The notes below the pieces were generated by a model, which was not told the origin of the DNA, did not search any database, and worked only from the letters and a program-made list of their open reading frames with translations. A stretch of DNA of 64,000 bases, taken from Halofilum ochraceum (GTDB taxonomy: Bacteria; Pseudomonadota; Gammaproteobacteria; XJ16; Halofilaceae). The position numbers and the translations under genes are program-made. The number at the start of each line of letters is the position of its first letter. Position 1 is the first letter of the stretch. Shown in pieces: positions 15,170 through 62,300 of this stretch. The DNA is taken from NCBI RefSeq assembly GCF_001614315.2, contig NZ_LVEG02000017.1, positions 1 to 64,000 on the forward strand, written 5' to 3'.

Positions 15170-15249
15170 GTAGGAGCGGGCTTGCCCGCGAACCGACGTC
15201 CCCCGGCAACACACCAACAAATACCGTAGGTCGGACTTCAGTCCGACAC
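15170..15249 (+). repeat. Two adjacent REP palindromes, class I and class II
   Basis: Class I unit GTAGGAGCGGGCTTGCCCGC at 15170-15195 and class II unit GTAGGTCGGACTTCAGTCCG at 15226-15249, in the same orientation, in the 183 bp gap between the methyltransferase stop and dapF start (both genes on the minus strand). Different REP families lying side by side is repeated elsewhere in the window. Confidence 0.85.
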
Positions 15250-15322
15250 TCGCAAGCCCAGGCGCCATCCACTCCTCACCGCGCCCAGAACTCCCCCAAC
15301 CCGACGCGACCCAACCAAAAAC

Positions 15323-17395: not shown

Positions 17396-17507
17396 GGCGC
17401 GCGCTCCGGGCAGATTCAGGCAGATCGCACAGTATAAACGCCGGTGAGAGATGCGCCCACGGGGGACTGGCGTGAGGGGGCCTTGGGGCAATTCACGCGT
17501 GGGCTTG

Positions 17508-17550
17508 GGTTCTCGCCAAGCCGCGGAGTGCGCCAAGGATCGCAAAGGAG
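17508..17550 (+). repeat. Solitary repeat arm (CTCGCCAAGCCGCGGAG)
   Basis: GGTTCTCGCCAAGCCGCGG and the following CGCCAAGGATCGCAAAGGAG resemble one outer arm of elements D and E (31348, 46755), but no inverted partner is found within this 277 bp gap between lptM and the carboxylesterase gene. It looks like a decayed or half element. Confidence 0.6.
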
Positions 17551-30583: not shown

Positions 30584-31222
30584 TCAGCCCGGCTTGCTGC
30601 GCTTGCTGTTGAGCCAGCGGACCACGGGCTGCCACTGCTCACGATCGGTGACCGTGGCATACGGCGCCAGTTCGAAAATGCCGAGCCCCCGTTCCGCCGC
30701 CCGGATATAGTTCATGTTGTCGCGCAGGGTGGTGAGGATCGGCACGCGCTGGCGACGCAGATGCTGGTCGAGCTCGCCGTAGACCCGGGTGTAGGTGCGG
30801 GCGCGGTTCTCGATCAGGGCGAATTTTGCCTGCCTGGACTGGATCCGTTTGTTGCGCCGCATCTCTTCGAGGAAGTTATCGGCGGCTCGCCAGTCGATAG
30901 GAGACGGCAGCACGGGGACGATGAAGGTGTCGGCCCGGCGCATGAGATTGCCGAGGTCGGCACCGTGCACGGCTGCGGGCGCGTCGAAGATGGCCATATC
31001 CGCGCTGCGCGGGAGGCGTGCGCCTTTGGTGGTGGCATCGACCCCACGGATCGGCGGCCGGCCCGCGGGCCGCTCCTCGAGCCACGCAAGCGACGAACCC
31101 TGGGGATCGAGATCGGCGAGGACAACGTCCTTGCCCTGGGTGGCGTAGTAACTCGCGAGATTGGTCGCAATGGTACTTTTGCCCGACCCTCCCTTCGCGT
31201 TCAGAACCATGATCTGGCGCAT
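30584..31222 (-). CDS. Orphan ParA/MinD-like ATPase
   Basis: 212 residues. Deviant Walker A KGGSGKST at residues 10-17 (MRQIMVLNAKGGSGKSTIAT), Walker A' DLDPQGSSLAWL near 38, and DMAIFDAPAAV as Walker B. It has no N-terminal DNA-binding domain and no parB next to it, unlike the true parA at 49679. Orphan ParA-like ATPases position cargos such as chemoreceptor arrays, flagella, carboxysomes or plasmids; here the cargo is unknown. ATG at 31222 is the start that precedes the P-loop by the normal distance. Flanked upstream by repeat element D. Confidence 0.88.
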   Translation of the reverse strand: MRQIMVLNAKGGSGKSTIATNLASYYATQGKDVVLADLDPQGSSLAWLEERPAGRPPIRGVDATTKGARLPRSADMAIFDAPAAVHGADLGNLMRRADTFIVPVLPSPIDWRAADNFLEEMRRNKRIQSRQAKFALIENRARTYTRVYGELDQHLRRQRVPILTTLRDNMNYIRAAERGLGIFELAPYATVTDREQWQPVVRWLNSKRSKPG

Positions 31223-31347
31223 TGGGCCCCCACCGGGTTGTTGAACCGCCCCGATAGTGGCGCAATTCTTTGCGCGTGCCAAGTTCGGCGGGTTTATTGT
31301 GGACGATGCCCTGAATCAGGCGTGGTCGGGCAGGATATATGGGTGAT

Positions 31348-31603
31348 GGTTCTCGCCAAGGCGCAAAGGGCGCCAAGGGACGCGAAGAAAGGCGTAGGTC
31401 GGGTTGTAACCCGACACTTGGTGGCCCCCGGCTCTGCGGGATTGCACCCCGCACGGAACTCCTGAAGCGGCGGGTGAGATCCCTCTCCATGACCTGATCG
31501 CCGTACCCTCCGACAGGTCGTTGTCGGGTTACAACCCGACCTACGTGTTTTCTTAAGGCTTTCCTTGGCGCCCCTTGGCGCCCTTCGCGCCTTGGCGAGA
31601 ACC
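31348..31603. repeat. Nested inverted-repeat element D (CTCGCCAAGGCGC arms, class II REP, unique centre)
   Basis: Outer arms 31348-31390 and 31560-31603 (GGTTCTCGCCAAGGCGC at each outer end) are close inverted copies. Inside them, class II REPs at 31393-31416 and 31522-31545 (GTAGGTCGGGTTGTAACCCG) also face each other. The centre, read on the minus strand, has GGCGATCAGGTCATGGAGAG and TCACCCGCC, shared with element E. It fills the 422 bp gap 31223-31644 between ubiD and the ParA-like gene; no gene is seen. Confidence 0.92.
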
Positions 31604-31644
31604 AAAGCCCACACTGGATCAGCCCGCCGACATCACGCAGTCCC

Positions 31645-33120
31645 TCACGTCGACGTATCGATCCCCAACTCGTCCCAGATCGCATCCACTCGAGCGACGG
31701 TGGCATCGTCCATGCGGATCGGGCGGCCCCACTCGCGGTCGGTCTCGCCGGGCCATTTGTTGGTGGCGTCCATCCCCATCTTGGACCCGAGCCCGGCGAC
31801 TGGTGAGGCGAAGTCGAGGTAGTCGATAGGCGAGTTGTCGATGAAGGTGGTATCGCGCCGCGGATCCATGCGCGTGGTGATCGCCCAGATCACGTCGTTC
31901 CAGTCGCGGGCGTTGACGTCGTCGTCCGTCACCACGACGAACTTGGTGTACATGAACTGTCGCAGGAAAGACCAGACCCCAAGCATCACGCGCTTGGCGT
32001 GGCCCGGATACTGCTTCTTCATGGTCACGACCGCGAAACGGTACGAGCAGCCCTCCGCCGGCAGGTGGAAATCGACGATCTCCGGGAACTGCTTGCGCAG
32101 CAGCGGCGTGAACACCTCGTTCAGCGCGAGGCCGAGCACCGCCGGCTCGTCCGGCGGGCGGCCGGTGTAGGTCGAGTGGTAGATCGGATCCCGGCGGTGG
32201 GTGATCCGGTCGATGGTGAAGACGGGGAATTCCTCGACCTCGTTGTAGTACCCGGTGTGGTCGCCGAACGGGCCTTCGGGCGCTGTATCGCCCGGGTGCA
32301 GGTGGCCCTCGAGGACGATCTCGGCCCGCGCGGGTACCTGCAGGTCGGAGCCGATACAGCGCACGAGTTCCGTGCGGCTGCCCCGCAGCAGGCCCGCGAA
32401 GGCGTGTTCGGAGAGCGCGTCCGGTACCGGCGTGACCGCGGCCAGCGTCGTCGCCGGGTCGGCGCCCAGGGCGACCGCGATCGGGAACGGTTCGCCCGGG
32501 TGCGCGGCCTGCCAGTCGCGGAAATCGAGCGCCCCGCCCCGCTGCGCGAGCCACCGCATGATCACCCGGTTCGGGGCGATCACCTGTTGGCGGTAGATGC
32601 CCATGTTCTGGCGTTCGCGCTCGGGGCCACGGGTCACCACCAACCCCCAGGTAATCAGCGGACCGGCGTCGCCGGGCCAGCAGGTCTGTACCGGCAGTTG
32701 CGAGAGATCGACCTCGGCACCGGACTGGACGACCTCCTGACAGGGCGCGCGGCGGACCGTCTTCGGCGCCATGTCGAGAACTTTCTTGTACAACGGCAGG
32801 CTCTTCCATGCCTCACGGATGCCCTTCGGGGGATCGGGCTCCTTGAGGAACGCGAGCAGGCGGCCGATCTCGCCCAAGGCCTCTTTGTCCTCGGCGCCCA
32901 TGCCGCGCGCGACCCGGGACTCGGTCCCGAACAGGTTGCCCAGTACCGGAGTCGAGAACCCCTTCGGTTGCTCGAACAGCAGCGCGGGCCCGCCGCGTCG
33001 CAGTGTCCGGTCACAGATCTCCGTCATTTCCAGATACGGATCGACCGGATGCCGGACGCGCACCAGGTCGCCGGCGCGTTCCAGTCCCTCGATGAACTCA
33101 CGCAGGTCGCGGTATTCCAT
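31645..33120 (-). CDS. ubiD: 3-octaprenyl-4-hydroxybenzoate decarboxylase UbiD
   Basis: Prenyl-FMN-dependent decarboxylase of ubiquinone synthesis (decarboxylates 4-hydroxy-3-polyprenylbenzoate). 491 residues, full length. Family signatures: [20 protein letters not shown], the [20 protein letters not shown] loop, [19 protein letters not shown] with substrate/prenyl-FMN contacts, the catalytic E-R-E type segment [14 protein letters not shown], and [20 protein letters not shown]. It needs UbiX for the cofactor; ubiX is not in the window. Starts 10 nt after xthA stop, so the two are likely cotranscribed. Confidence 0.96.
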
Positions 33121-33950: not shown

Positions 33951-34333
33951 GAACCACGGATGGACACGGATGAACACAGATTGGCTCCCGGGGGCAGTTC
34001 GCTTTGGGGAGCTTCGCTGATGTCATGGAGCGTACGACAGGTTTTTTGGAACCACGAATGAACACGAATGCACACGAATAGTTCTTCGGGGCCAGGAAGT
34101 CGTGTCGGAGCTTGCGCTGATACCTTTGTGGCCCCGGGGAGCCGCGAGAAATCAGTGCAAGCCTTCAGCGAAGCTCCAACACCAGTGGTCAACCCGAAAC
34201 GCCATCCGTGTTCATCTATGTCCATCCGTGGTTCTCAACCCCCGGTTCCACCCCGCCTCCGTTTCAGCGTTCCTCCACGAACGCATCGGCACCCTCAGAA
34301 CCATTCGTGTCCATTCGTGTTCATTCGTGGTTC
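33951..34333. repeat. Two interleaved inverted-repeat elements (CACGGATG and CACGAATG arms)
   Basis: Four arms occur in the order 1, 2, 1', 2'. Arm 1 33951-33984 (GAACCACGGATGGACACGGA) pairs with 34201-34234, about 29 of 34 bases. Arm 2 34049-34085 (GAACCACGAATGAACACGAA) pairs with 34297-34333, about 35 of 37 bases. Each arm is made of 10-12 nt quasi-repeats. Inner pair GGAGCTTCGCTG 34008-34019 and its exact inverse 34166-34177 belong to element 1; a variant GGAGCTTGCGCTGAT lies near 34107. This fills the 458 bp gap 33899-34356 between prlC and xthA; I see no gene. Confidence 0.92.
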
Positions 34334-46754: not shown

Positions 46755-47041
46755 CGTGTTTTGGGGTTCTCGCCAAGGCGCCAAGCGCGCCAAGGGACGC
46801 CAAGAACGGCGTAGGTCGGGTTTTAACCCGACACCTGCGTGTCGGGGTGTGAGGCGATCAGATCATGGAGAGGAATTTCACCCGCCTCGTCGGATTTCTG
46901 TGAAGCGGGGTGCAGCCCGACAGAATCGGGGCACCACGTGTCGGGTTAAAACCCGACCTACGAACTCTCCAGGCCTTCTTCCTTTGTCCTCCTTCGCGTC
47001 CCTTGGCGCGCTTGGCGCCTTGGCGAGAACCCGAAAACACG
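46755..47041. repeat. Nested inverted-repeat element E (CTCGCCAAGGCGC arms, class II REP, unique centre)
   Basis: 46 bp outer arms at 46755-46800 and 46996-47041 are inverted copies with one mismatch (GTTCTCGCCAAGGCGCCAAG core). Inside them, a perfect 24 bp inverted pair of class II REPs lies at 46811-46834 and 46938-46961 (GTAGGTCGGGTTTTAACCCG). The centre has GGCGATCAGATCATGGAGAG and TTTCACCCGCC, and GCGGGGTGCAGCCCGAC, all shared in order with element D on the opposite strand. It fills most of the 388 bp gap 46734-47121; no gene is seen. Confidence 0.95.
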
Positions 47042-61984: not shown

Positions 61985-62300
61985 TTTTCACGCAGAGGCG
62001 CGGAGCACGCGAAGGGCGCAGAGAAATTCCTTTGTAGGAGCGGGCTTGCCCGCGGTCCGCTCGAATGCGCGCAGCGCCCCGGGCGAGGTCATCCAAGCCT
62101 GGCTGGTTCTCTCGCCACGACGCGAGGGGCGACAGCGAGCCCCCAAAAAAGATGAATCACGCAGAGCCGCGGAGTGCGCAGAGTCTGAAAGAAAATCGAT
62201 ACTGGGCTAAACGCTCATGGCATTTCCATGTCGCCCGATTTTCGAAATATGGTTCAAAAGGTTTATTTACTTTGCGCCCTCTGCGGCTCTGCGTGATCCC
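61985..62300. repeat. Repeat cluster F: CACGCAGAGGCGC arms, class I REP, AT-rich centre
   Basis: This fills the 362 bp gap 61974-62335 between convergent glmS and yajL. An arm lies at 61985-62025 (TTTTCACGCAGAGGCGCGGA), a class I REP at 62034-62058, and CGCTCGAATGCGCGCAGC at 62058-62075, shared with element A. A second arm pair at 62154-62184 (GAATCACGCAGAGCCGCGGA) and 62269-62300 (inverse) encloses a patch of low GC (about 62185-62268), unlike the rest of the window. No gene is seen. Confidence 0.82.

Follow-up and report, generated by a model that had tools for sequence, protein, structure and literature searches.

REP doublets are usually regarded as free-standing units scattered between genes, and REPINs are thought to be mobilised by RAYT transposases. 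According to Di Nocera et al. (2013, PMC3733652), ordinary REPs lie near the 3' ends of genes. The closest published arrangements, described in the same paper, are the Pseudomonas elements that combine GTAG-1 units with unrelated stem-loops and the TIR families beside RAYT-like genes. Here, we describe element D of Halofilum ochraceum, in which a REP doublet is nested within a second, unrelated palindrome. The window denotes the whole stretch of 64,000 nucleotides that was analysed, and it was compared with the H. ochraceum genome (G000), a sister species (G001) and a more distant congener (G002); loci carry L-numbers. Our unbiased statistics cover 464 kb, comprising 400 kb of contig C1 and the window, and gene positions come from home-made gene calls.

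Anatomy of element D and its relative E

Inverted-repeat analysis resolved D (31348-31603) into a two-layer palindrome, a hairpin nested in a hairpin (Table 1). The outer inverted repeat extends over 54 nt (31340-31393 and 31558-31611, 85% complementary) when its weak outer tips are included, the arms proper being 42 nt each, and the inner one over 29 nt (31388-31416 and 31522-31550, 93%). Both pairs are thus present where the preliminary description of this DNA had placed a doubly nested inverted repeat. The REPs between the arms, of the GTAGGTCGGGTTGTAACCCGACA type, begin at 31394 and, inverted, at 31522, and this sequence occurs at 15 places in G000 with at most one mismatch. They are GTAG-tagged, inverted palindromes that can fold into one hairpin, the features by which REPINs are recognised; judged by its sequence, the inner layer of D is a putative REPIN-like doublet with its GTAG ends towards the arms. 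The site of D is the 3' untranslated region of ubiD. Folded as RNA, D reaches z = -14.4 relative to shuffled sequences. The assertion that such structures are no chance hairpins also holds: all 35 long inverted repeats in the 464 kb fall into a few recurring families, one of which is the arm of D and E, and D is therefore a member of a class.

Table 1. Features of elements D and E and of the genes flanking D, in window coordinates
Feature	Position	Strand	Basis
D left outer arm (A-arm; four CGCNAAG units, steps 8, 9, 10 nt)	31348..31389	+	profile match 31341-31390, E 2.6e-16
D right outer arm, inverted copy	31562..31603	-	profile match 31561-31612, E 1.5e-15
D left arm, weak outer extension	31340..31347	+	
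D right arm, weak outer extension	31604..31611	-	
D left GTAG REP, GTAG end facing outward	31394..31416	+	
D right GTAG REP, inverted, GTAG end outward (head-head doublet)	31522..31544	-	
D centre (its relative in G000 is the E centre only)	31417..31521	not assigned	similarity search
ubiD (3' end ~40 nt from D)	31645..33120	-	Pfam UbiD 6e-86
ParA/MinD-like ATPase gene (start ~130 nt beyond D)	30584..31222	-	Pfam CbiA 1.7e-15
E left A-arm	46765..46808	+	arm pair reading, profile match
E right A-arm	46988..47031	-	arm pair reading, profile match
E left GTAG REP	46811..46833	+	
E right GTAG REP	46939..46961	-	
E centre (antiparallel to D centre)	46834..46938	not assigned	alignment

Element E (46765-47031; z = -14.5 as an RNA fold) aligns with D in the antiparallel direction over its whole length at 73% identity, and the D centre (31410-31530) matches it at 77% over 121 nt (expectation value 2.4e-19), so that the kinship of the two elements goes beyond arms and REPs, as had been proposed. 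The shared parts differ in reach, however: the centre is common to D and E and, apart from a 23-nt scrap, was found nowhere else in G000, whereas the arms occur in dozens of elements. In the relatives, the search with the D centre returned pieces of ~30 nt in G001 and ~23 nt in G002, and nothing longer. Although the centres are antiparallel, one arm-REP junction agrees in parallel orientation (D, AAGAAAGGC|GTAGG; E, AAGAACGGC|GTAGG), as a flip through the REPs might produce. D is flanked by ubiD and the ParA-like gene, E by mnmE and mnmG. An origin of E by one recent segmental duplication of D, the case held to refute a defined unit, is rejected by these different neighbours, by flanks in which no sharing was seen and by the 77% identity.

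The A-arm family and its variable interiors

The consensus of the outer arm, hereafter called the "A-arm", is GGTTCTCGCCAAGGCGCRRAGGGCGCCAAGGGACGCRAAGRA, in which the CGCNAAG unit occurs four times, in steps of 8, 9 and 10 nt, and the first 15 nt hardly vary. With D as the query, 139 matches were obtained in G000, mostly arms in inverted pairs, and a profile built from 36 arms matched 151 times in G000, 142 times in G001 and 19 times, more weakly, in G002. The A-arms of G000 form dozens of inverted pairs whose interiors differ, enclosing various REP doublets or none. In the 33 complete arm pairs of G000 that were read, GTAGGAGCGAGC-type REPs stand head-out in 14 and tail-to-tail in 2, GTAGGTCGGACTTCC doublets occupy 5 (and a partial one 1), GTAGGC-type repeats occur in 4, and 5 lack a REP. 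The GTAGGTCGGGTT REPs are present in two pairs, D and E, to which the D/E centre is likewise confined. Some elements (e.g., L053, L065 and L262) possess a third layer of CACGCAGAG-type arms. In the interior comparison, the centres proved mostly unrelated between elements; L032 and L049 share interior and junctions.

Consequently, the defined composite unit of about 256 bp inferred in the preliminary description does not stand as a single fixed unit, because the copies are unlike in their interiors and because, in G001, the arms at D enclose another interior. Taken as whole elements, the arm pairs have the terminal inverted repeats and the many copies of a MITE; a homogeneous body is lacking across the copies, whose interiors differ. 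Inspection of the flanks by eye recognised no target-site duplication, and the outer tips vary in length and sequence. At window positions 17499-17549, there is a solitary A-arm, up to which the G001 alignment reaches. Within its doubly nested arm pair, L065 (G000 C11:65700-67400) contains a long GGGCCAA tandem run that resembles an expanded arm unit.

The long-spacer (119-139 bp) head-out REP doublets are closely tied to the arms. In the 464 kb, 6 of 7 lie within arms, as compared to 0/3 short-spacer head-out doublets and 0/4 tail-to-tail doublets, and arm motifs flank only 62 of 20000 random positions on both sides (0.3%). Doublet and arms therefore belong together far beyond chance, and the term "composite" is partly borne out by this recurring combination, though not for one fixed unit. 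The long-spacer doublet of the D/E type was found only in D and E; one doublet of the seven, counting any type, lies outside arms.

Y1_Tnp (PF01797) matches in G000, G001 and G002 show that the genus has RAYT-type genes. Of the genes examined, two sit between inverted REPs: one in G001 C61 between type-1 REPs, with a lone A-arm upstream, and one in G000 C2 between type-2 REPs, carrying one in-frame stop. None of the examined RAYT loci has a matched A-arm pair around the gene, and an autonomous transposon with A-arm ends was sought there without success; the only gene-enclosing arm pairs in the cross-phylum loci likewise contained no obvious transposase.

Turnover of the interiors between species

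The close comparison rests on two genomes, G000 and G001, with loci matched by their flanks. Around D, the identity is ~85% with G001 and ~73% with G002. At the D locus of G001, the arms are in place around a GTAGGAGCGGGC-type doublet and another centre, and G002 lacks the element. At the E locus, the mnmE-mnmG gap, G001 has a lone CTCGCAGAG-type arm and G002 has none. As for the empty sites that were to be looked for in sister genomes, D and E are absent from G002 and E from G001, in intergenic DNA that has diverged so far that no junction can be read. A mobile or "hopping" composite, as suggested earlier, agrees with these absences and is left unproven, as neither a clean arm empty site nor a target duplication was seen.

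Twenty-one positions have arms in both G000 and G001. Their interiors are the same at 8, inverted at 4 (L034, L045, L049 and L066), unrelated at 7 (D, L037, L041, L054, L056, L067 and L252) and deleted in one species at 2 (L064 and L271). Inversion thus affects 4 of the 12 alignable interiors. In all four, the arm-REP spacers flip along with the centre while the outside flanks remain unflipped, and at L034/L229 the switch point is in the arms themselves, no more than ~18 nt from their outer ends. L257 presents a clean 135-bp insertion with a GTAGGTCGGGC doublet in an arm pair; the corresponding arm pair of G001 lacks it. The inserted segment (~458-592 of G000 C1:708300-709400) has ends like AAGGAAGCTTTGATCA / TAATCAGAGGTTCC, and similar ends occur at L258-L260, L264, L265 and L267. 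At L236 (G001 C12, ~1520-1560, reverse orientation), the element has collapsed, its arms nearly fused without an interior, and the G000 element (L064) is full. A separate ~100-bp segment (window 15170-15293), whose two REPs differ in type, is absent in G001.

Placement, arm evolution and folding

Arm pairs lie between co-directional genes in 22 cases, convergent genes in 9 and divergent genes in 1 (n = 32), the scarcity at divergent sites having p = 0.001. All 22 co-directional pairs are nearer to the 3' end of the upstream gene than to the downstream start (p = 4e-5), at median distances of 39.5 nt and 122 nt, respectively. Since REP-less elements are placed likewise near 3' ends, this placement belongs to the arms.

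Left and right arms are more alike within one element than across elements at positions 15-20 and in the outer tips (-15 to -3); at positions 21-40, the within-element complementarity is no higher than that between elements. Where G000 and G001 differ at arm positions 0-20, the left and right arms tend to change in concert (8 versus 3.2 expected; reached in 16 of 2000 shuffles), and outside these positions concerted change shows no excess over expectation. Exchange between the arms close to their outer ends could account for this pattern, as could a structural constraint. Between the species, arm positions 14-40 are 79% identical, equal to the centre (79%), so that no purifying selection is seen on the whole arm. 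Positions 0-14 reach 92%, a value biased because the arms were found by their outer block; with that bias, only the outer block looks specially conserved, and the comparison lends no support to purifying selection on whole arms.

G-U pairs exceed A-C mismatches in the outer tips and not at positions 21-40, base composition being uncontrolled in this count. A known RNA family is not indicated, as no Rfam family reached its gathering cut-off in the window, D drawing only plant miRNA precursor models far below it. An intrinsic terminator is unsupported, the elements that were read having no U-tract behind them.

Distribution of the arm pattern

The exact spacing pattern of the arm occurs, among the matches listed, in Planctomycetota, Bacteroidetes, Lentisphaerae, Nitrospirae, Desulfobacteraceae, Acidobacteria, Chloroflexi, Gammaproteobacteria and others. 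Thirty-six of 86 arms from these matches have an inverted partner within 450 nt, compared with 0 in shuffled controls, and the loops of the cross-phylum pairs are often 6-50 nt. In these sequences, the basic form of the A-arm is a plain short hairpin. The model of the G000 arms matches 6 of 143 genomes of the class at E <= 1e-6; the exact A-arm subtype is therefore local, and the general pattern broad. In the literature searched, neither sequence strings nor topic led to a published account of the A-arm; A-arm strings had no matches, and related strings had three, all in papers on animal systems.

Several other palindromes deserve mention. In Stygiobacter electus (L133, 1794-4890), A-arms bound gene-holding segments whose products resemble, by eye, an ImmA/IrrE-type metallopeptidase and a nucleotidyltransferase. 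The window contains CACGCAGAG-type arm pairs with the 8-9 step pattern of the A-arms at 2419-2759, which encloses a GTGGGTCGGGTTTTAACCCGAC REP and differs from G001, and at 62156-62297. At 33951-34333, two inverted repeats of another family, with GAACCACGAATGAACACGAATG arms in 10-nt steps and many copies in G001, are interleaved rather than nested. Nesting in other families occurs on G000 C1 at 187417-187743, 244846-245133 and 375933-376599 (L281, L284 and L290), where CACGAATG arms stand together with CACAGATG or AACCAAAAAATGAAC arms.

Explanations for the nested architecture

How does a palindrome keep its place while its contents change? One composite, MITE-like non-autonomous element, with the A-arms as terminal inverted repeats and the REPs and centre as cargo, would move as a whole 256-bp unit, E being copied from D or the reverse. 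The arms, one arm-REP junction and the centre that D and E share would also fit such copying of the whole composite. Moreover, the mnmE-mnmG gaps of G001 and G002 lack E, G002 lacks D, arms with a long-spacer REP doublet recur, and L032/L049 share interior and junctions. We nevertheless regard this explanation as unlikely: most elements share no centre, the D arms of G001 hold another interior, neither a target-site duplication nor a clean arm empty site was seen, and the examined RAYT loci contain no transposase between matched A-arms. Less probable still is a selected structured RNA, in which the arms, perhaps with the REPs, protect or terminate the upstream mRNA as a 3'-end hairpin and the loop is free to vary. 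The position just after stop codons in 22/22 co-directional cases, the near absence between divergent genes, the very stable predicted folds and the within-element complementarity at the outer tips and positions 15-20 are consistent with it. However, positions 21-40 show no excess of such complementarity, and G-U exceeds A-C in the outer tips but not there, in a count uncontrolled for composition. Furthermore, the elements read have no U-tract after them, no Rfam family was found at cut-off, and REPs in general share the 3'-end placement (PMC3733652).

A dedicated site-specific inversion system, whose recombinase would recognise the conserved arm end GGTTCTCGCCAAGGCGC, seems very improbable. 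Its outer 15 nt are near-invariant, and 4/12 alignable interiors are inverted between unflipped flanks, but the analysis linked no recombinase to the arms, and no regulatory feature that a flip could switch was seen between them. General pathways could also act on arms of ~40 bp, and interiors are replaced as well as flipped. On balance, we favour a stable 3'-end hairpin frame, the REPIN-type interior of which is inverted and exchanged by recombination between the arms. This reading starts from what was observed, namely the anatomy, the arm positions common to both species, the inverted and replaced interiors, the placement at 3' ends and the enrichment of REPs.

Frame: In the recombination scheme that we favour, the outer layer is a copy of a widespread hairpin family, in which the CGCNAAG unit occurs three to four times at 8-9-10 nt steps, and the arm pair is a stable frame that stays at its site from one species to the other. 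The outer hairpin may be what the host tolerates or uses, as a 3'-end structure, and the interior mostly passenger DNA.

Turnover: The interior between the arms is inverted in place and replaced by other interiors, most likely as the outer arm ends, which are nearly identical, recombine with each other or allow template switching between them. Recombination within one element would yield inversion, and recombination between elements would yield exchange. Because no donor of a replaced interior was identified, we infer, rather than observe, the exchange between elements; counter to it, the sole clean case, L257, gained its interior by insertion. No enzyme tied to the arms was found, and the species comparison does not demonstrate arm mobility.

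A bolder proposal, to which we give little credence, is that the A-arms, the CACGCAGAG arms ("B") and perhaps the CACGAATG arms ("C") form one undescribed, phylum-crossing hairpin superfamily of repeated 7-8 nt units. Its members would act as 3'-end exchange frames, in which mobile palindromes nest and, perhaps with the help of a dedicated enzyme, are flipped and swapped by way of the conserved ends of the arms.

Comparison with known systems

Among intergenic MITEs, ERIC, YPAL and NEMIS are similar in being gene-adjacent, foldable palindromic intergenic repeats of 70-300 bp, as PMC3733652 summarises them. In contrast, the present elements have no Rfam match at cut-off, no target duplication that was seen, and nested contents that change between species. 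Spaced inverted repeats are also sources of rearrangement in E. coli, in work on interrupted palindromes, SbcCD and RecA (PMC3315005); that study concerns inverted chromosome duplications, whereas here ~250-bp interiors are inverted or replaced, as read from the species comparison.

The "double inverted repeats" by RAYT-like genes of P. putida and P. fluorescens, and the TIRs of TIRYT genes, resemble our elements in that GTAG-1-like units are joined to unrelated stem-loops in hundreds of copies. In PMC3733652, however, the REP units are described as degenerate and the repeats flank transposase genes, while here no transposase was found between matched A-arms. The A-arms are set beside these repeats by description.

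The REPINs, or head-head dimers of GTAG REPs with RAYT genes (Bertels and Rainey 2011, PMC3116915; Di Nocera et al. 2013, PMC3733652), are similar in their GTAG-tagged inverted doublets that form one hairpin, in the RAYT-type genes of the genus, and in their location in co-directional or convergent gaps near 3' ends. They differ in that nearly all long-spacer doublets here sit inside an unrelated outer arm pair, with centres mostly unrelated and an interior that flips or changes between species as the outer arms stay. One class of REP doublet thus occurs almost only inside a second, unrelated palindrome, the contents of which turn over at a fixed site, and the history of these REPs in the genus is therefore unreadable without the frame. 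The arm sequence itself, for which the literature searched provided no published name, recurs over many bacterial phyla, and its origin and spread are now testable.
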